Positions 8,967 to 24,326 of a DNA stretch of 33,473 bases are shown here, piece by piece. Below the pieces are notes generated by a model. It was not told the DNA's origin, searched no databases, and was given only the letters and a program-made list of their open reading frames with translations. Position 1 is the stretch's first letter, and each line of letters begins with the position of its first letter. This stretch comes from Nostoc sp. 106C (lineage in GTDB: Bacteria > Cyanobacteriota > Cyanobacteriia > Cyanobacteriales > Nostocaceae). Location of the stretch: contig NZ_MTAW01000200.1 of NCBI RefSeq assembly GCF_002154725.1, positions 1 through 33,473 of the forward strand, given 5' to 3'. A program made the position numbers and the translations under genes.

Positions 8967-10010
8967 TTACTGTTTAGATGTCAATTGTTGAGGTGTAATT
9001 TTGGCATATTCTTCTGGTGATAAAATCACTTCTTTAATATCAATTTTTTTAGGTAAAAGTTTCAAATCATAGTACATATCAGCAATTTGTTGTTGTTTTG
9101 CAACTATTTCATTTGTAATTGGCAACAGACCATAGTCGAGACGAGTATGAACTTTTTCTAAAGTATTTACATCTATGCCTACTTCTTTGGACAATAACTG
9201 TGCTAACTCACGAGGATTATTTTTTGACCATTTTTCAGCCTTTTGTACTTACTCTAAAAATGCTTTGATAATTTCAGGATGCTCTTTGGCGAAATGGCGT
9301 GTTGTAGAGTAAAAACCACCAATATCTCTAAGACCTGTGCCATCTCTGAGAATCCGACCAATACCTTTTTCTTCTACACGAGTTATGTACGGTTCCCAAG
9401 TAATCCAAGCATCAACTTTGGCTTGACTAAAAGCAACATTAGCATCAGGTGGGGGTAAATAAATAGGAGTAACATCGCTCAATTTTAAACCCACTTCTTT
9501 TAATGCCTGAATTATTATATATTGAGCTACAGAAGCTTTTTGCAAAGCAATTTTTTTACCTTTAAGATCGACAACACTTTTAATAGAGGAATTTTTGGGT
9601 ACAACGAAAGCAACACCTTTAGGACTCGGTTGTGTTGTAGATATATAAACTAAAGGTGTTCCTGCTGCTTGAGCAAAGATAACAGGAGACTCTGCGGTTG
9701 AAGTAATATCAAGACTATTGGCATTTAATGCTTCTAATGATTGAGGCCCAGCAGCAAATTCATGCCAAGTTACAGAATCTCCCTCTGCTTTTAGGCGTTT
9801 TTCTAAAGTTCCTTGTTTTCTGACTACAGCAAGAGGGCCAAGCTTAGAGTAAACTATACGAACTGTTGTTGGCTTTTTCTCACTTGTGGTTGAAGCTTTT
9901 TGACTAGTTTGAGGTTGTGGATTACAACCAACCAATGTAATTAGTAGCGATCCTAAACTTAAAGTGATAAATAAAGACACATTTCGTCTCGCGCTATATG
10001 AAATAAGCAT
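8967..10010 (-). pseudogene. SsuA-like binding lipoprotein interrupted by one in-frame stop
   Basis: The frame from ATG at 10010 to TAA at 8967-8969 is 348 codons, the full length of the family, with a single internal TAA at 9249-9251 (GAG TAA GTA, between KAFLE and VQKAEKWSKNNP). Paralogues have Glu-rich sequence at this place, so one G-to-T change in a GAA codon explains it. The N-terminal part has a lipobox TLVGC (C29), LEKRLKAEGDSVTWHEF, AESPVIFAQAAGTPLVY and DAWITWEPY. The C-terminal part has the LLPITNEIVAKQQQ and ILSPEEYAKIT landmarks. The 253-residue product lacks the last ~90 residues, including part of the second lobe, and is probably non-functional. A sequencing error is the alternative explanation. 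The rest of the gene shows no decay, so loss would be recent. Confidence 0.85.
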
Positions 10011-16902: not shown

Positions 16903-17865
16903 TTATGTTTTCGTTTGCTCTCTTATTTTTTGAATTGCTTTTTGTGCGTAGATACTAACCTCGCGATCGGGATCGTCTAGTGCTTGTTGAAGGGCGTTTA
17001 GAGCTTCAATTTTACTTAAATTTCCAAGAGCGATCGCAGCTTCTTTTCTCACATCTGAATATTCATCTGTTAGCGCTTCAATTAGTGCAGGTAAAGACTG
17101 GATATCGGGGATTTTCTGTAATATTTGAATGGCAAATTTTCTCACCTGCCAATGTTCATCTTTCAATGAAATTAGTATAGTAGGAATAATTTTGGCATCA
17201 GCATGAAGTGCGAGAGACTTAGCAGCATTGCGGCGTACTTGCCAGTCTGTATCGTTTATTAAAGTATTATTCAGTAGATTTACGATATCTGCATCTGCAA
17301 AATGCCCTAAAGTCAAAGCAGCCGCACGACGCACGCTATCATCGCGATCGCTAACTAAAGGTAAGGCAGGTGGGCATATCTGCACTTGATTAAGATAGCT
17401 AAGAGTAGTAACAGCCGCTTCCCTTAGTTGAGGATGTTCCGAGTCAAAGAAGGATAGTACCGCAGGAAGAGACTGGGCATCATGTATCTTTCGCAACAGA
17501 ATTAACACATTCAGTTGGAGGTTGATATCTTCTTGCTGTAACGCATCAAGCAAAAGCAGCAAATGTTCTGAAGTTACCAACTCACCCAAAGCTGACAGCG
17601 CCTCACTACGAATTTCTACATCTGATGAAGCCAGACAGGGTAATAAAGCCGGAACAGCGATGGGATTGGCAAGTTCCCATAATGCAGTCACAGCAATTTT
17701 TTGCACGGCGGTGCTTTCATCTTGCAAAGCTACAATTAGACCATCAATAGCCGCCTCTTCGCCCAAGTGTTGCAGAGTTTTGACTGCAACTAAGCGATCG
17801 CTTACATCAGGCGATCGCAACATTTCTAACCATTCATTTAATTCAGAATCTATATTTACAGACAT
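16903..17865 (-). CDS. HEAT-repeat (PBS-lyase-like) protein
   Basis: A 320-aa protein built almost entirely of about nine or ten helical HEAT repeats of ~31 residues. Units such as SDVEIRSEALSALGELV, DDSVRRAAALTLGHFAD, DWQVRRNAAKSLALHAD, EHWQVRKFAIQILQKIP and YSDVRKEAAIALGNLS show the spaced D-x-x-V-R-x-x-A pattern. Cyanobacterial relatives include phycobilin lyase subunits (CpcE/NblB type) and general scaffolds. No lyase partner is nearby, so protein-protein interaction is all that can be claimed. It is the last gene on the minus strand of the flavoprotein/ferredoxin/ArgJ array but is separated from argJ by 438 bp of decayed sequence, so it may have its own promoter. Confidence 0.85.
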   Translation of the reverse strand: MSVNIDSELNEWLEMLRSPDVSDRLVAVKTLQHLGEEAAIDGLIVALQDESTAVQKIAVTALWELANPIAVPALLPCLASSDVEIRSEALSALGELVTSEHLLLLLDALQQEDINLQLNVLILLRKIHDAQSLPAVLSFFDSEHPQLREAAVTTLSYLNQVQICPPALPLVSDRDDSVRRAAALTLGHFADADIVNLLNNTLINDTDWQVRRNAAKSLALHADAKIIPTILISLKDEHWQVRKFAIQILQKIPDIQSLPALIEALTDEYSDVRKEAAIALGNLSKIEALNALQQALDDPDREVSIYAQKAIQKIREQTKT

Positions 17866-17939
17866 TTTGCATCCCGATCAAACTGGTTAATCTTTTATCC
17901 CTGCCTTGTAGTAGGAGTAATTTCAAACAATTAATTCGC

Positions 17940-18273
17940 TTGCCTAAAACAAATATACTAAATCAAGAAGCAATCAAAAAATTTGCTGATCATCGGCATG
18001 ATGTTCTCAAGCAGGTAAAAGGAGTAATTCGTCATAATGCTTATAAATATTCAATTTACTGACCTATAACAATTGTTTTTAAAAATAGGGTTTACGAAAG
18101 TACCAATAGCTGGGTCTCAACAAGTATATCAATCTTCATCTTCAGGAGCTTTGATAATATTACCAGCTTAAGAACAGCAAGAGTATGTTCAGTCTGTGCA
18201 TTTGGTCGCTGTACGTCGAGTATTGCTAGAAAATGGTTTAATCAACTCGAATACTTTCGACAGTTTTTTATAA
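17940..18273 (+). pseudogene. Decayed coding sequence of unknown origin
   Basis: The 438-bp spacer between argJ and the HEAT gene has no intact gene but shows two open stretches on the plus strand in different frames. One of 40 codons (17940-18062) includes NQEAIKKFADHRHDVLKQV. The other (18088-18273) includes VYQSSSSGALIILPA, then a stop, then EQQEYVQSVHLVAVRRVL. Their amino-acid composition looks coding, but I recognise no family, and they need not come from one gene. Both lie opposite in direction to their neighbours. Confidence 0.3.
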
Positions 18274-18303
18274 AAGGTTGCAAGCTAAAGTGGCAAAACT
18301 TAA

Positions 18304-19467
18304 TTAAGTTGAGTATTTACCGTTAATTTCTACATAACCTTCTGAAAGGTCACAACCCCATACAGTTGCAACAGCTTCGCCAATATTGAGGCTAACATGA
18401 ATATTCACCTTATCCTTAGACATTACTTGTCGTAACTCTTCTAAATTTTCCTCATTTAAAATATTCGGATATGCTTTAATATTATCAAACCTAATCACAA
18501 CATTTTCTGGATTTATTGCTAGCTCATTTTCGCATTTGCCGATAGCCATTGCTATTCGTCCCCAATTCGGATCGGCACCATAGATAGCAGTTTTTACTAA
18601 AGGTGAATTAACTATTGCTTTAGCAACTGTTTTAGCTTGTGCATAATTAAGAGCCGAATCTACAGTTACTTCAATAATTTTAGTAGCACCTTCGCCATCT
18701 CCTGCTATTTTCAAAACTAATTCATGGGCGATTTCTTGCAGCGCGCGAGCAAATTCCTGTTCTGAAACTTCACCTGCTAAACCATTAGCTAAAATGATAG
18801 CAGTATCGCTAGTAGAAGTATCTGTATCGATACTTAGGCAATTAAACGTTTTATCTACAATAGGGCGAAAAATTGAACGCAACACATTGGCAGAAATCGC
18901 CGCATCGGTAAAAAAGAAAGCTAGCAATGTCGCCATATTTGGCTCAATCATGCCCACACCTTTGGCAATTCCTACCAGCTTGGCATTTCCAATTTGTCGC
19001 GCTGCTAACTTTGGTACAGTGTCGGTTGTCATAATACCGCGTGCTGCCAAATTGAAATCAGCCGCAGTTAATTTCTTACCAATTCCTAACAATCCGGTTC
19101 GGATTTTTTTTATGGGGTAACGTCTACCAATTACGCCTGTAGAAGCTATCAAAATATTATGTGGAGAAATTCCAGTTTCATTTGCTACAAGTTGAATTAT
19201 TTCTTCTGCATCGGCAATACCTACACTACCATTAGCTACATTTGCATTTTTAGATATAACGACAATTCCCTGCGCTTGATTATCTTTTAAGTTGCGGCGG
19301 CTAATAGTCACACTTGGCCCGACGAAAAGACTTTGTGTAAATACTCCATCAACAGCACAGGAAACATCCGATTTAATTAATACAAAATCATCAGTAGTAT
19401 CCTTTATGCCTAGATTAGTAATAAACGTACTAAATCCTTGAGGAGTTGAAGATGAACCTAATGACAT
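18304..19467 (-). CDS. argJ: ArgJ-family ornithine acetyltransferase / N-acetylglutamate synthase paralogue
   Basis: A 387-aa ArgJ-family (Ntn-fold, self-cleaving) protein. The autoproteolysis site is in GVGMIEPNMATLLAFF, with Thr at about 180 as the N-terminal nucleophile of the beta chain. ASTGVIGRRYPIKKI, SKNANVANG, DTSTSDT, GDGEGATKIIEV and GADPNWGRIAMAIGK are also family landmarks. ArgJ transfers the acetyl group of N-acetylornithine to glutamate (and may use acetyl-CoA) in cyclic arginine biosynthesis. The N-terminal ~60 residues differ from the usual APKGF opening (here STPQGFSTFITNLGIKD). Because it sits in a sulfur-related array rather than with arginine genes, it could be a second, specialised copy; this cannot be decided from one window. 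The ATG at 19467 follows an AGAGGAG about 14 nt upstream. Confidence 0.82.
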   Translation of the reverse strand: MSLGSSSTPQGFSTFITNLGIKDTTDDFVLIKSDVSCAVDGVFTQSLFVGPSVTISRRNLKDNQAQGIVVISKNANVANGSVGIADAEEIIQLVANETGISPHNILIASTGVIGRRYPIKKIRTGLLGIGKKLTAADFNLAARGIMTTDTVPKLAARQIGNAKLVGIAKGVGMIEPNMATLLAFFFTDAAISANVLRSIFRPIVDKTFNCLSIDTDTSTSDTAIILANGLAGEVSEQEFARALQEIAHELVLKIAGDGEGATKIIEVTVDSALNYAQAKTVAKAIVNSPLVKTAIYGADPNWGRIAMAIGKCENELAINPENVVIRFDNIKAYPNILNEENLEELRQVMSKDKVNIHVSLNIGEAVATVWGCDLSEGYVEINGKYST

Positions 19468-19613
19468 TTGTTATATAAAACTCCTCTAATTGTGTGGTTT
19501 GATGATAGTGGTAGTTTAACGATCGCCTTTTTAGGCATCTCATTTTTTGTGGGTTTTTATTCGTCAAAACTATTCAAACTGAAGGGTAGGCATTACTATG
19601 AAAAATTCTCTCT

Positions 19614-19641
19614 TTAGCCCCAAAATTTAGCCTGGGGCTAG
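19614..19641 (-). terminator. Stem-loop after the ferredoxin gene
   Basis: On the minus strand, directly after the ferredoxin stop, CTAGCCCC pairs with GGGGCTA(A) around a 12-nt A+T-rich loop. The following run is A/G-rich and then T-rich rather than a clean T tract, so it may be a weak terminator or mRNA 3' stabiliser separating the ferredoxin from the ArgJ paralogue. Confidence 0.45.
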
Positions 19642-19642
19642 A

Positions 19643-19870
19643 TTAACGTAACAAAAAAGGAATTTGTACCTTAATTGCATTTGTGGGACATTCTTTTTCG
19701 CAAGGAAGACAGAACCAGCATTCGTCATATTTCATATATGCTTTGCCAGTTTCGGGATTTTTGGCTAGTACATCAAGCGGACAAACTTCAATACAAACCC
19801 TACATTTTTCTAAACATTTAGACTCGTCTACAATAACAGGAACATCTACTCTTTGATTAATTAAAGCCAT
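19643..19870 (-). CDS. Two-[4Fe-4S] ferredoxin, AprB-like
   Basis: A 75-aa ferredoxin with eight cysteines in two clusters. CLEKCRVCIEVCPLDVL is the first (with one Cys more distant than in the classic CxxCxxCxxxCP) and CWFCLPCEKECPTNAI the second. The DECWFCLPCEKECP wording is typical of AprB-type (adenylylsulfate reductase beta-like) ferredoxins that partner AprA-like flavoproteins. It would pass electrons to or from the FAD of the flavoprotein encoded at 21457-23166. The ATG at 19870 follows AGAGGTG. It is separated from the flavoprotein by a GNAT and a methyltransferase, unlike the usual adjacent AprBA order. The short C-terminus (IQIPFLLR-like) lacks the longer tail of true dissimilatory AprB. 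Confidence 0.88.
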   Translation of the reverse strand: MALINQRVDVPVIVDESKCLEKCRVCIEVCPLDVLAKNPETGKAYMKYDECWFCLPCEKECPTNAIKVQIPFLLR

Positions 19871-19966
19871 CTGACACCTCTGTACATTGTTAGTATTTTT
19901 GTCATGTAAGCAATGCCTACCCTACAGAAAGATTAATATTTCACGAATGATTTAAGTGTAATACTT

Positions 19967-20749
19967 TTAATTGGCAATTGCTGCTTTAAAAAAACGATAA
20001 CCCACATCAATTTCTGTTAACTGACGAATGTCTCCATACTTTGCATCCCATTCACCACTACTTAAATCTGCTGCGAGAGATTTGACACCAGATTCAATAA
20101 AATTGCGATTCCCCAACGCAAAGGAAGATATTCCTGCACGCACTTCTGGCTGAAGATACAATTCAGGTCGCCTCCAAGCTGCTGCGGCAAATAAATCAGA
20201 TAAATCGTAGGGTAACATCAAAGGTATTACTTCAATAACCCTTTGAGTATTCTGCTCAATTAAACTTGTAATTTCATGCAGTGGCAGAAATTTTAGTGCG
20301 TCTTCCCACAGCCAAGGAAAGTAATCATATAACCAGATTTTTTGAGCAAATCTGATATCAAAGCTTAATAATATAACTGGCCCATTTCTTATAATTCGGT
20401 GCATCTCTTGAAAAGATTTTGCTAAATCAGAAAAATGATGAATTGTCAGAATACTAATTACCGCATCAACAGATTGATCGGGTAAAGGTAAAGCTTCTGC
20501 ATATCCAGTAAACCATTTAACTTTTGGATGTTCTGATGCTTGTGTACGCATTATCGATGATGGTTCAACAGCATAAACAGAAAATCCTTGATTAGCTAGC
20601 GCTTTTGAGTAACCACCAGTACCCGCCCCAATATCAGCAATAATCCTACCTTTTGGCAAATCGAGTAAGTTGATTATAGTCTTGACAATTCGCGGATCGG
20701 GAACGCGAGTTTTTGTATATTGTTTACCGATTGAATCATAAAGAGGCAT
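19967..20749 (-). CDS. Class I SAM-dependent methyltransferase
   Basis: A 260-aa methyltransferase (methyltransferase-11 type). LYDSIGKQYTKTRVPDPRIV leads to motif I IADIGAGTGGYSKALA (about 37-52), then YAVEPSSIM, WFTGYAEALPLPDQSVDAV and ILTIHHFSDLAKSFQEMHRI. In place of the common LKPGG it has NGPVILLSFDIRFAQKIW, seen in a subgroup of cyanobacterial enzymes. The acceptor is unknown. It lies between the GNAT and ferredoxin genes of the AprA-like array, about 96-115 bp from each. Those spacers contain GTAGGGTGGGCATTGC-type repeats, so co-transcription is likely but not certain. Confidence 0.85.
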   Translation of the reverse strand: MPLYDSIGKQYTKTRVPDPRIVKTIINLLDLPKGRIIADIGAGTGGYSKALANQGFSVYAVEPSSIMRTQASEHPKVKWFTGYAEALPLPDQSVDAVISILTIHHFSDLAKSFQEMHRIIRNGPVILLSFDIRFAQKIWLYDYFPWLWEDALKFLPLHEITSLIEQNTQRVIEVIPLMLPYDLSDLFAAAAWRRPELYLQPEVRAGISSFALGNRNFIESGVKSLAADLSSGEWDAKYGDIRQLTEIDVGYRFFKAAIAN

Positions 20750-20864
20750 TTGTAAAACCCCAGATTTTTATATAGATAGCATACAAGTAATGTTCTGTAG
20801 GGTGGGCATTGCTCACCTTATAAAGCTTTCACAAATCAAATAAGACTTCGATACTCAGCATAAA

Positions 20865-21317
20865 TTACTTGTAACCAATTTTCTTATAAAACGTCATTGA
20901 CTGTTTGGTATTGGTGTAACCAATTTTTTCATAAAAAATGTGAGCCTCTGTGCGTTTAATGTTAGAACGTACAATAATTCCTTCACATCCAGCTGAAGAA
21001 GCCCACTGCTCAATATACTGCATTAATGTACGTCCAATTCCTGCATGACGATAATCTTCATCCACCACTAACCCAAGAAGTAATGCTTGATTTGGAATAA
21101 TTATCAAATCACAAGTATGAGCGTGTGCCCAACCAATAACGTCATCATTTGCTAATGTAGCAACATAAACAACGTGACTGTTATTATCTTGAATTTGCAC
21201 AAGGCGTTGCTCTATCTGTTGCGATGTAGCAGAATATCCAAGCTGAACGCAAAGCAGTGCAATTTTCTCTGCATCTTTACCCTGGGCCAATCTAATTTTT
21301 ATTTGCTTATTATTCAT
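20865..21317 (-). CDS. GNAT-family N-acetyltransferase
   Basis: A 150-aa acetyltransferase close to the single-domain minimum. IKIRLAQGKDAEKIALLC is the first strand-helix, LLLGLVVDEDYRHAGIGRTLMQYIEQ is motif A with the acetyl-CoA loop RHAGIG, and AHIFYEKIGYTNTKQSMTFYKKI is motif B. I start at ATG 21317 (MNNKQIKIR), three codons inside the longer TTG-initiated frame. The substrate is unknown; relatives acetylate aminoglycosides, amines or protein N-termini. It lies 139 bp downstream of the AprA-like flavoprotein, across a spacer with GGTGCGTTGCGCTGCGGGAC-type repeat text. Confidence 0.85.
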   Translation of the reverse strand: MNNKQIKIRLAQGKDAEKIALLCVQLGYSATSQQIEQRLVQIQDNNSHVVYVATLANDDVIGWAHAHTCDLIIIPNQALLLGLVVDEDYRHAGIGRTLMQYIEQWASSAGCEGIIVRSNIKRTEAHIFYEKIGYTNTKQSMTFYKKIGYK

Positions 21318-21456
21318 TAACAACAAATTTCTTATCTCTCTGCACCCCTCTACGTTTAAAAATTGTTAACGGTGCGTTGCGCTGCGGGACAACACACCCT
21401 ACCATCAATTTCTTAACATAGTTTTAAATATTAGCGCTGATTTACTTGTCTTGAGT

Positions 21457-23166
21457 TTATCTCACTGCTACATCATAGACTTCTCTTCCTAAATCCACAT
21501 CCACAATATAAGGTTCAACAGGACGCTTAAATAACACCATTTCCTCTCTTGGATTCTTCTTCAAATTCACATGACAAAACCACTCTTGATTATTCTTCTC
21601 TGGAAAATCTAAGTGATAGTGATAAAGTCCCCAGCGACTTTCTCGGCGATATATTGATGCTCGTGCAGCCATCTCTGCACAATCTCTAATAAAATGTACT
21701 TCCATACAGCGCATGAGTTCGTGAGGATCGTGCGCTCCCATTTGTGCCAACGTGTCATGATAGCGGACAAAATTATTCAGCCCAATTTCCATTTTGTAAT
21801 TTGATTTTGGCGGTTGTAAGTAATCGTTTACTAACCGCCGCAACTTATATTCAACCTGGGTATGGGGAATTCCATTCGGCTGATTTAAAGGTGCATAAAT
21901 CCTTGCTTTTTCTGCTGCCAAAAAGTCAGGATCGGGTTCCAAAAGATCCAAATCTTGGATGTACTCAATAGCATGAGTTCCTGCTAAACGTCCATATACA
22001 AATGCCCCAATCATATAGTTATGGGGAACACTTGCCATATCTCCGGCTGCATACAATCCTGGTACTGTGGTTTCTGCTTTTTCATTTACCCAAACACCAG
22101 AAGCACTATGCCCACTACATAATCCAATTTCAGAGATATTCATCTCAATACCGTGGGTGCGGTAGTCTTCACCTCTACCTTCATGGAAGCGTCCTCGACT
22201 TGGTCGTTCGTTTGACCATAAAATAGACTCAATTTCGGAAATAGTGTCTTCATCTAAATGAGTCATTTTCAATTGAATTGGCCCTTTACCAGAGTTTAAT
22301 TCTTTCCAAATCTCTAGCATCATTTGACCACTCCAATAATCACAATTAATGAAGCGGTGTCCTTCAGCGTTGGCGGTATATGCGCCAAAAGGCCCAGCAA
22401 CATAAGCACAAGCTGGGCCGTTGTAGTCTTTGATCAAGGGATTGATTTGGAAGCATTCGATGTTACTCAGTTCTGCACCTGCGTGGTAAGCCATTGAGTA
22501 ACCATCACCAGCATTAGTTGGGTTTTCATAAGTACCGTAGAGGTAGCCAGATGCAGGTAATCCTAAGCGTCCGCAAGCACCTGTGCAGAGAATGACGGCT
22601 TTGGCTTGGATGACAACAAAATCCCCGCCACGCACATCAAACCCAACCGCACCGATCGCTCTTCCTTGGTTTACCAAAACCCGTGTCGCCATGACGCGGT
22701 TAGTAACATTGACTTTATGGCGCTTTACCTGTCGGGTAAGAATAGTCTTCAGGTCTTTACCTTCTGGCATTGGCAATACATATTTGCCTACCCGATGCAC
22801 TTGCTTAACATCATAATTTCCTTGGGGGTCTTTTTGGAACTTAACACCCCAACTTTCTAATTCTTGAATGGTTTCGTAACCTAGCTTTGCGGTTTGGTAG
22901 ACAGCTTTTTGATGGAGAATACCATCGTTGGCAATAGTGACTTCGCGCAGATACTGTTCTGGTGTAGAGTATCCGGGGATGACTGCGGTATTGACGCCAT
23001 CCATACCCATTGCGATCGCACCACTCCGACGAATATTCGCCTTCTCCAAAATCAGCACTTGTGCCGCTGGATTAGCCTGTTTCGCCTTAATTCCCGCCAT
23101 TGTCCCTGCCGTACCGCCGCCAATCACTAACACATCGGTTTTTATCCATTGGGTAGTTGTTTCCAT
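21457..23166 (-). CDS. AprA-like FAD-dependent oxidoreductase (fumarate reductase/APS reductase flavoprotein family)
   Basis: A 569-aa flavoprotein of the succinate dehydrogenase/fumarate reductase/AprA family. The FAD-binding dinucleotide motif is DVLVIGGGTAGTMAG (residues about 11-25). VILCTGACGRLG, NAGDGYSMAYHAGAEL and VPGLYAAGDMASVPHNYMIGAFVYGRLAG are FAD and capping-domain landmarks, and WGLYHYHLDFPEKN with CHVNLKKN near the C-terminus is AprA-like. Real AprA reduces APS to sulfite with AprB. Here the neighbourhood (sulfonate-type binding protein upstream, ferredoxin downstream) suggests a role in assimilating organic sulfur; the reaction is unknown. I start at ATG 23166 because it follows AGGTGATTAT (Shine-Dalgarno). 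The extra 25 codons of the longer frame come from a purine-rich spacer repeat and encode a Ser/Pro run. The binding protein ends 86 bp upstream, probably in the same operon. Confidence 0.85.
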   Translation of the reverse strand: METTTQWIKTDVLVIGGGTAGTMAGIKAKQANPAAQVLILEKANIRRSGAIAMGMDGVNTAVIPGYSTPEQYLREVTIANDGILHQKAVYQTAKLGYETIQELESWGVKFQKDPQGNYDVKQVHRVGKYVLPMPEGKDLKTILTRQVKRHKVNVTNRVMATRVLVNQGRAIGAVGFDVRGGDFVVIQAKAVILCTGACGRLGLPASGYLYGTYENPTNAGDGYSMAYHAGAELSNIECFQINPLIKDYNGPACAYVAGPFGAYTANAEGHRFINCDYWSGQMMLEIWKELNSGKGPIQLKMTHLDEDTISEIESILWSNERPSRGRFHEGRGEDYRTHGIEMNISEIGLCSGHSASGVWVNEKAETTVPGLYAAGDMASVPHNYMIGAFVYGRLAGTHAIEYIQDLDLLEPDPDFLAAEKARIYAPLNQPNGIPHTQVEYKLRRLVNDYLQPPKSNYKMEIGLNNFVRYHDTLAQMGAHDPHELMRCMEVHFIRDCAEMAARASIYRRESRWGLYHYHLDFPEKNNQEWFCHVNLKKNPREEMVLFKRPVEPYIVDVDLGREVYDVAVR

Positions 23167-23252
23167 ATAATCACCTGAGGGAAAGGGGGATGAGGGAGAT
23201 GAGGAAGCAGTAGAAGCAGAGGAGAAATAACTATTGCCCAATACCTCATGCC

Positions 23253-24326
23253 CTAATTACGCCAAACTATGTCCTTGACGCTAATTTGTTTCGGTACAAG
23301 TTTAATTTTGTAGAAAGCATCGGCTACCTGTTGCTGTCCAGCAATCACTTCATCAGTAATAGGAAGTACACCATAATCACGCCGCTTTTCTGCTAGTTCT
23401 AAAACCTCAGCATCAATACCTAATGCAGGCGAGAGAAATTTAGCCACTTCAGCAGGATTATTCTTTGCCCAATCGCTAACTTTTTTCACTTCATCTAGAA
23501 CTGTTTTTAAAGTATCTGCATGGGCTTCGCTAAAAGACTTAGCAGCCAGATAGTAACCACGATTAGGCGCTAATCCTGTTGCGTCGATGAGAGTGCGTGC
23601 GCCTGTTGCTTTCTCTGCTAAAGCTAAGTACGGGTCCCAAATTGCCCAAGCATCAACGTTCTTACCTTCAAAAGCAGCACGCGCATCAGCAGGCTGGAGA
23701 GGAGTTACTTGGATGTCGCTATATTGTAGTCCTGCTTTTTCTAGTGCTTTCACTACCAAGTAGTTAGTGTTGGAACCTTTAGCGAAAGCAACTTTTTTGC
23801 CCTTGAGGTCGGCCACTGTTTTAATAGGTGAATCTTTGTGAACTACGATCGCTTCCCCTTTAGGACTCCAGGGATCGTAGGCAACATACACTAAAGGCGT
23901 ACCTGCGGCTTGGGCAAATATCGGTGGTGATTCTCCGGTGTAACCAAAGTCAATACTCCCGGCGTTGATAGCTTCTAACATTGGCGGGCCTGATGGAAAT
24001 TCAGTCCAAGTAACAGAAGCACCAGAGGAAGCCAAAGCTTTTTCTAAGTCGCCTTTTGCTTTCAATGCACTTAAAATAGTTCCCGCTTTCTGAAAGCCAA
24101 TACGAACCGCAGTGCTGCTGGCGGCTGCACTCTGATTAGGTGTAGCTGTTACCTGTGTTGTGGCTACGCGATCGCTGGTGTTTGAAGAACAAGCCGAAAC
24201 AAATAAAACCAAGCCGAGTCCGGCTGCAAACAGTAGAAAAAAAATACGGATTCTTTGTAGCTTAAACCTTTGGAGAAAGCCGAGCAAAATGTTTAATAGT
24301 CGAGATTGAAAAAACTTGGACAACAT
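23253..24326 (-). CDS. Sulfonate-type ABC substrate-binding lipoprotein (SsuA-like)
   Basis: A 357-aa SsuA/NMT1-family periplasmic binding protein with an unusually long basic N-region. The membrane segment IRIFFLLFAAGLGLVLF is followed by lipobox FVSAC (C46), then a Thr/Ser/Ala-rich linker. Landmarks are VRIGFQKAGTILSALKAKG, TGESPPIFAQAAGTPLVYV, GKKVAFAKGSNTNYLVVKAL, ADARAAFEGKNVDAWAIWDP and YYLAAKSF. The C-terminus ends shortly after PKQISVKDIV and lacks the SPEEYA tail of the other copies. It opens the AprA-like array. The ATG at 24326 is followed by a clear signal sequence. The divergent spacer to the next methyltransferase holds operator-like site A. No permease or ATPase gene is present. 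Confidence 0.88.
   Translation of the reverse strand: MLSKFFQSRLLNILLGFLQRFKLQRIRIFFLLFAAGLGLVLFVSACSSNTSDRVATTQVTATPNQSAAASSTAVRIGFQKAGTILSALKAKGDLEKALASSGASVTWTEFPSGPPMLEAINAGSIDFGYTGESPPIFAQAAGTPLVYVAYDPWSPKGEAIVVHKDSPIKTVADLKGKKVAFAKGSNTNYLVVKALEKAGLQYSDIQVTPLQPADARAAFEGKNVDAWAIWDPYLALAEKATGARTLIDATGLAPNRGYYLAAKSFSEAHADTLKTVLDEVKKVSDWAKNNPAEVAKFLSPALGIDAEVLELAEKRRDYGVLPITDEVIAGQQQVADAFYKIKLVPKQISVKDIVWRN

Follow-up and report, generated by a model that had tools for sequence, protein, structure and literature searches.

Why does a cyanobacterium carry a flavoprotein and a ferredoxin that resemble the two subunits of the adenosine 5′-phosphosulfate (APS) reductase AprAB, and what could the pair do beside genes for sulfonate-type uptake? 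This question is raised by a 33,473-bp stretch of Nostoc sp. 106C (contig NZ_MTAW01000200.1; the whole stretch is called the window), in which the two genes belong to an array of seven. We found that the flavoprotein belongs to a separate family related to AprA, which is widespread, has a ferredoxin and a HEAT-repeat protein of its own and is associated with genes for sulfonate-type uptake and desulfonation. The order and strand of the flavoprotein, ferredoxin and HEAT genes are kept in all 80 distinct cyanobacterial loci that have a same-strand HEAT gene. Judged by sequence comparison, the module is a real, conserved variant of the AprAB and 3′-phosphoadenosine 5′-phosphosulfate (PAPS) reductase kind, with the acyl- and methyltransferases of the array as cargo, and its core probably serves organosulfur acquisition.

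The conserved core and its cargo

The families of all seven open reading frames (ORFs) of the array were checked by hidden Markov model scans, which confirmed the genes and their order as read in a first-pass annotation of this DNA:

23253..24326, minus strand: SsuA-like substrate-binding protein, core (TIGR01728, 260 bits against a cut-off of 163.5; PRK11553, 303.5 against 299)
21457..23166, minus strand: flavin adenine dinucleotide (FAD) flavoprotein of NCBIfam NF006131/PRK08275, core (1008.9 bits against a cut-off of 587, over 27-584)
20865..21326, minus strand: GNAT N-acetyltransferase, cargo (PF13508/PF00583)
19967..20749, minus strand: class I S-adenosylmethionine-dependent methyltransferase, cargo (PF08241)
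19643..19870, minus strand: 2[4Fe-4S] ferredoxin, beta-subunit-like, core (75 amino acids (aa), eight Cys, conserved CWxC motif)
18304..19467, minus strand: second ArgJ-family protein, cargo (PRK05388, 418 bits against 351; TIGR00120, 353 against 298)
16903..17865, minus strand: HEAT-repeat protein, core (matches positions 610-896 of PRK13800, the HEAT part of a flavoprotein-HEAT fusion)

The flavoprotein ORF spans 21457-23241 and opens with a TTG at 23241. Because its relatives align starting from the ATG at 23166, this ATG is likely the start in preference to the TTG. The protein is a clear member of NF006131/PRK08275, of which NF010374/PRK13800 is the HEAT-fused form; the names of both families carry only a generic fumarate reductase label. 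In the Nostoc genome the flavoprotein family is single-copy, the remaining matches being far weaker. Of ArgJ, by contrast, the genome has a further copy on contig C152, which shares 40% identity with the ArgJ-like protein of the array, and the description of the latter as a paralogue was upheld.

To define what is conserved, genome contigs were scanned. This confirmed 165 loci, of which the best 80, all cyanobacterial, were retained; with seven further stretches 87 loci were compared, or 86 after a duplicate (L067) was dropped. ORFs were called with a simple script and families were taken from BLAST clusters, a procedure that can overlook genes, join them or break them up. A same-strand HEAT gene was present after the flavoprotein gene in 80 of the 86 loci, and none was found there in the other six (L042, L058, L100, L116, L118 and L123). 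Insertions were counted as same-strand ORFs of at least 90 aa; opposite-strand ORFs occur at some loci and were untallied. On this count, 31 of the 80 loci have no insertion among the core genes from flavoprotein to HEAT, and the other 49 have one to six. At least one insertion lies ahead of the ferredoxin gene in 47 of these 49 and past it in five. The gap between flavoprotein and ferredoxin is thus a recurrent insertion site for varied small same-strand enzymes (47/80 cyanobacterial loci).

Between flavoprotein and HEAT, the clusters of the window's GNAT and methyltransferase were each found in 29 of the 80 loci, a HAD hydrolase in 15, ArgJ in seven (BLAST matches in 8/87 loci) and MetX and MetY in six each. 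A Mrp/NUBPL-type Fe-S carrier gene (Pfam PF10609) lies within three ORFs past HEAT in 62 of the 80 loci; in the window such a gene does not adjoin HEAT. Both HEAT and the downstream carrier, present in many relatives, had been little stressed in the first-pass annotation.

On the upstream side, 85 loci were counted, L067 having been dropped and one locus without an upstream ORF left out. The commonest neighbour is an SsuA-like gene, which immediately precedes the flavoprotein gene on the same strand in 48 of them. In 15 of this set of 85 a divergent LysR-SsuA fusion lies upstream. In such a gene (seen at L040:6133-8133 and 15 other loci) a LysR regulator is fused to an SsuA-like domain, and the protein may sense the transported ligand directly. 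Counting the SsuA type, the LysR-SsuA fusion and a larger SsuA/NMT1-related type together, a binding protein was found within −5 to +9 genes in 72/85 loci.

The conserved unit therefore comprises binding protein, flavoprotein, ferredoxin and HEAT only, and GNAT, methyltransferase and ArgJ are optional, lineage-specific cargo. The first-pass annotation had proposed that the array may release or store sulfur from an imported organic compound, and had seen its unusual feature in the interleaving with acetyl- and methyltransferases. The array is more than a chance arrangement in its core, with the fixed order and the binding protein upstream, but not in the three cargo genes. The interleaving is the variable part: no same-strand gene of at least 90 aa stands between the core genes in the 31 uninterrupted cyanobacterial loci, nor any between flavoprotein and ferredoxin in nine proteobacterial ones described below. 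An N-acetylation or methylation step of the pathway, which had also been proposed, is likewise not supported. Promoter- and terminator-like sites in the array were no more frequent than in shuffled sequences, and these scans were uninformative on operon structure.

The module is not restricted to cyanobacteria. In a search of plasmid records the flavoprotein turned up in 51 (E ≤ 1e-60), with identities of 60-80% in 46 of these, and the carriers include Paraburkholderia, rhizobia, Acinetobacter, Methylocystis, Acidithiobacillus, Tsukamurella and Nonomuraea. Eleven plasmid loci were examined, ten of the 51 as annotated stretches and one unannotated by ORF search; ten of the eleven are non-cyanobacterial. 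In nine of these ten, all from proteobacteria (Cupriavidus, Acinetobacter, Methylocystis, Mesorhizobium, Acidithiobacillus, Aquabacterium, Methylobacterium, Bradyrhizobium and Sinorhizobium), the ferredoxin gene lies directly 3′ of the flavoprotein gene with nothing in between, and HEAT follows either immediately or past an ABC transporter. In the actinobacterium Tsukamurella (L126) a single protein of 893 aa combines the flavoprotein with the HEAT part (PRK13800, 1568 bits against 1196), and the ferredoxin gene sits upstream of this fusion. Of the gene order, on whose conservation the first-pass annotation had staked its proposal, the core is thus widely kept. A scan of viral contigs found no relative.

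Some further features were observed along the way. The module on a Nostoc edaphicum plasmid carries HAD, methyltransferase, GNAT and VOC cargo, and on plasmid pNe_5 of this species (L131, L135) the module, an AsfAB-like pair, SsuD and MetX/MetY are found together. On a Methylobacterium radiotolerans plasmid (L132), FdxA and a ferredoxin-NADP reductase are encoded near the module and are a possible electron source for it. The window itself also holds two TauD-family genes, two TauE-family genes and three more SsuA-like genes, one of them broken. The latter (9249-10010, minus strand) is truncated by an in-frame stop, after which the same frame is open again; with a further remnant of a binding-protein C-terminus, the region reaches down to about 8270. 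It is probably a pseudogene.

Relationship to AprAB, PAPS reductase and AsfAB

Besides PRK08275 and PRK13800, the nearest model to the flavoprotein is the APS reductase alpha subunit PRK06854, with 310 bits (cut-off 557). The AprA model TIGR02061 gave 185.1 bits, below its cut-off of 641.75, compared with 157 bits for TfrA and 145 bits for SdhA/FrdA (TIGR01812; cut-off 567.3, not reached). Among solved structures, the best relative by profile is the alpha subunit of the PAPS reductase MtPAPSR of Methanothermococcus thermolithotrophicus (8a8o_A, 277 bits), ahead of AprA (2fja_A, 203 bits) and SdhA (134 bits). In a maximum-likelihood tree of 21 rows, the flavoprotein family formed one clade (99/99) that grouped with AprA plus PAPS reductase (86/89). 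AsfA-like proteins stood apart (100/100) and SdhA-type proteins made up a third group.

We then compared the active-site columns. The sulfate group in AprA is enclosed by Asn74, Trp234, Arg265 and His398, and the residues that line the APS channel or make contact with it include Tyr95, Val273, Gly274 and Leu278 (PMC2211403). The Asn74 column is kept in the five aligned members of the window family, and the column of PAPS reductase His346 is His in the three members that cover this region, including the window protein. In the same five members, Tyr95 is replaced by Glu, Val273 by Ala and Gly274 by Cys. PAPS reductase itself has the same residues as AprA in the columns of 74 (Asn), 234 (Trp), 265 (Arg) and 95 (Tyr). 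For Lys120-Arg121-Ser122, by which PAPS reductase recognises PAPS, the window alignments gave no match, but this loop is of unequal length and its placement depends on the method. The placement of the 141-145 loop also varies with the method, and no weight is put on it. An Arg/His-rich segment (columns 320-335 of alignment A2) is invariant in the flavoprotein family. Because the flavoprotein stays below the AprA cut-offs and several APS-contact residues are replaced, the window pair is, on these comparisons, not an APS reductase, in agreement with the suspicion raised in the first-pass annotation; it appears to retain the route of the electrons and some of the site that handles SO3.

The electron path is seen in the ferredoxin. 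The CWxC motif with Trp52 is invariant in 13 of 13 aligned window-type ferredoxins, and a match without length difference (5-28 against 36-59 of 8a8o_C) places Trp52 at Trp42 of the PAPS reductase beta subunit, an electron-transfer residue (PMC10322725). In AprB, Trp48 carries electrons to the FAD (PMC2211403), and Trp52 may correspond to it by way of Trp42 of PAPS reductase. Like dissimilatory AprAB, the window pair consists of an FAD flavoprotein and a ferredoxin, and the Asn74 and His446 columns are kept, but AprB chains have 150-166 aa compared to 75 aa for the window ferredoxin. The enzyme of M. thermolithotrophicus (PDB 8a8o), an assimilatory use of an AprAB-type enzyme (PMC10322725), is closer in having a small 2[4Fe-4S] beta subunit, the Trp42 relay position and the Asn and His columns. 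It differs from the window family, which has other residues at the Arg265 and Trp234 columns, a substrate loop of other length, and a HEAT partner and organosulfur neighbourhood instead of sulfate activation.

A second known system that had to be considered is AsfAB. The asfRABC arylsulfonate genes encode a reductase and a ferredoxin (PMC4267179), and AsfA and AsfB of C. metallidurans are Rmet_4334/5 on CHR2 (PMC2864759). The window pair shares with AsfAB a flavoprotein of the fumarate reductase superfamily and a 2[4Fe-4S] ferredoxin in sulfonate clusters, but its flavoprotein lies in another clade, with about 22-32% identity over aligned stretches. The whole CHR2 replicon contains only two matches to the window flavoprotein, at 28 and 29% identity, so the window protein is not AsfA whichever CHR2 gene is AsfA. 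AsfB-like ferredoxins, moreover, carry CQTC (7/7) in place of the CWxC of the window family, and they extend further at the C-terminus. An identification of the window pair as AsfAB was rejected on these grounds.

One of the two CHR2 matches, at 928 kb, has an adjoining ferredoxin gene. The NuoF gene (Rmet_4300 in PMC2864759) lies at 894 kb, and because the distance of 34 kb fits the 34 gene numbers to Rmet_4334, we infer that the 928-kb pair is AsfAB; through this position the AsfA-like rows of the tree are linked to AsfA. No LysR gene (asfR) was seen near this pair, which counts against the assignment; the genes scanned around it encode a TctC-type receptor, a rhodanese, an amidohydrolase, an Rrf2 regulator and a fatty acid desaturase. 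The Nostoc genome has three intact-looking AsfA-like genes and one split over two frames. AsfAB-like pairs were seen on its contigs C93, C143 and C230 (L147, L148 and L149), with binding-protein genes near the latter two. In Sinorhizobium americanum an AsfAB-like pair is directly followed by a window-type module: AsfAB and the module are two systems able to travel together.

Association with organosulfur genes

The pairing of AprA/AprB-like proteins with an organosulfur setting, proposed in the first-pass annotation from the SsuA-type neighbours, was supported at the level of the phylum. Among 386 cyanobacterial genomes that were sampled evenly, the module family was found in 17, SsuD (by TIGR03565) in 31 and AsfA-like proteins in 21. 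These searches used E thresholds of 1e-150, 1e-120 and 1e-80, with at most three to five candidates scored per genome, and copy numbers are lower bounds. SsuD was present in 15 of the 17 module genomes (one-sided Fisher test, 1e-16) and AsfA-like proteins in 11 of the 17 (6e-12), both tests ignoring kinship. SsuD is encoded on the contig of the flavoprotein within 50 kb in five of the 17 genomes, at distances of 2.6 to 45 kb; two further genomes have it 0.8 and 3 Mb away. AsfA-like genes lie within 17 kb of the flavoprotein gene in four genomes, and three others have them at distances of 0.8 to 4.3 Mb. In the remaining module genomes SsuD and AsfA-like genes are on other contigs or absent, the distances being limited by draft contigs. 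Near the module we also found a TauE-family gene in 5/85 loci, a YeiH-family gene in 8/85 (model score 221 bits, just under the cut-off of 233) and MetX and MetY in 6/85 each. The TauE- and YeiH-family neighbours agree with sulfite being made, which is suggestive only.

Proposed function and rival explanations

We favour, as a plausible explanation that still falls short of being probable, a ferredoxin-driven FAD enzyme that frees sulfite from an imported organosulfur compound with HEAT and Mrp helpers. The binding protein would help to import a sulfonate or a sulfate-ester-like anion. The ferredoxin would dock on the flavoprotein as AprB does on AprA, and electrons would pass from the cluster via Trp to the FAD. 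The SO3 group would be held by the retained Asn and His, and N5 of the reduced FAD would attack its sulfur. A flavin-sulfite adduct would form and release sulfite, an organic leaving group taking the place of adenosine monophosphate (AMP). HEAT could act as a scaffold or assembly factor and the Mrp-type carriers could supply Fe-S clusters. Sulfite would then go to the ordinary sulfite reductase and any surplus to TauE/YeiH-type exporters. Direct reductive release of sulfite by the flavoprotein and ferredoxin, the central step, is proposed tentatively because the AMP-holding residues have been given up and the Asn, the His and the Trp relay have been kept; for AprA, the N5-adduct mechanism and the residues involved are described in PMC2211403 and PMC10322725. 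It is a rather doubtful further step to see here a third branch of the AprAB superfamily with an AMP site rebuilt for an organic leaving group. Such an oxygen-independent, ferredoxin-driven reductase, forming a flavin-sulfite adduct, would free sulfite for assimilation in oxygenic phototrophs and aerobic soil bacteria, beside the oxygen-dependent SsuD and TauD.

Several observations weigh against the reductive release of sulfite. The Arg265 column is Leu and the Trp234 column Tyr in the five aligned family members, and because of these two replacements even AprA chemistry may be lost. Arg265, which in AprA contacts the sulfate through water (PMC2211403), is the weak point of the mechanism argument, since it touches the sulfate too. 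The AprA His398 region fell outside the alignment, which covers the PAPS reductase His346 column. In the tree, the join with AprA and PAPS reductase has moderate support, lies where several long branches come together and involves an AprA row without its middle part. The predicted structure of the flavoprotein (from an alignment of 25 close relatives) has a mean predicted local distance difference test score of 47. Most sulfonates have poor leaving groups, and an attack by the flavin would need an activated substrate; aryl sulfates, sulfamates, S-sulfonates and activated sulfonates have usable leaving groups and are candidate substrates. The organosulfur association also has gaps, with 13/85 loci lacking all three binding-protein types within the range counted. 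Two of the 17 module genomes are without SsuD and six without AsfA-like proteins, and G149 and G223 have the module and neither of them.

Among the rival explanations, the flavoprotein and ferredoxin might feed electrons to a separate desulfonating oxygenase of the SsuD/LLM or TauD type, as the Asf reductase and ferredoxin are described to do (PMC4267179). The frequent co-occurrence with SsuD would fit, as would the two TauD-family genes of the window and the TauD-family genes within −5 to +9 genes in 7/85 loci. We nevertheless regard this as unlikely: the conserved core includes no oxygenase, SsuD is close by on the same contig in only those five genomes (as far as draft contigs allow), and the pair, which is distinct from AsfAB, has retained residues for handling SO3 that would be superfluous in a protein serving only to carry electrons. 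It is more unlikely still that the enzyme transfers hydride or electrons, like a fumarate reductase, to some other imported anion (an organic acid, a thiamine-precursor-like or an arsenic compound), the sulfur genes being incidental. The NCBIfam label of fumarate reductase/succinate dehydrogenase flavoprotein points this way, NMT1/THI5-like binding proteins are by their Pfam name not sulfonate-specific, and the invariant Arg/His-rich segment has a specificity that sequence does not assign. However, the APS reductase model scored about twice as high as those of TfrA and SdhA, a small 2[4Fe-4S] ferredoxin, not an SdhB-type subunit, serves as partner, and the organosulfur association is strong.

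A true AprAB APS reductase or PAPS reductase, whether reductive or sulfite-oxidising, is highly improbable. It would share the fold family, the ferredoxin partner with its Trp relay and Asn74, but the low TIGR02061 score and the changes at Arg265, Trp234, Tyr95 and Gly274 speak against it. ATP sulfurylase and CysH-family genes, moreover, are found elsewhere in the Nostoc genome, in which no DsrA scored above the cut-off (qmo and DsrB were outside that search). Least credible is a chance co-orientation of unrelated genes. The variation of GNAT, methyltransferase and ArgJ between genomes and the shuffle-level promoter- and terminator-like sites would agree with it, and for the cargo it stands; for the core it is contradicted by an order kept across cyanobacteria and proteobacteria and by the fusion in an actinobacterium.

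In the open-access literature we found no description of the module or of the function of its families, and a term search of the main text of Rhodococcus IGTS8 proteomics gave no result. Organic forms make up over 95% of soil sulfur (PMC4267179), and a sulfonate monooxygenase of Nostoc is needed for moss colonisation (PMC7784912). If the release of sulfite by the flavoprotein and ferredoxin is true, an oxygen-free reductive route would explain the extra module in organisms that already have SsuD, and AprAB chemistry would be extended from sulfate activation to organic sulfur. As the module is conserved over a wide range of bacteria and has no name beyond that of a fumarate reductase, one knock-out could assign the function of the whole family.

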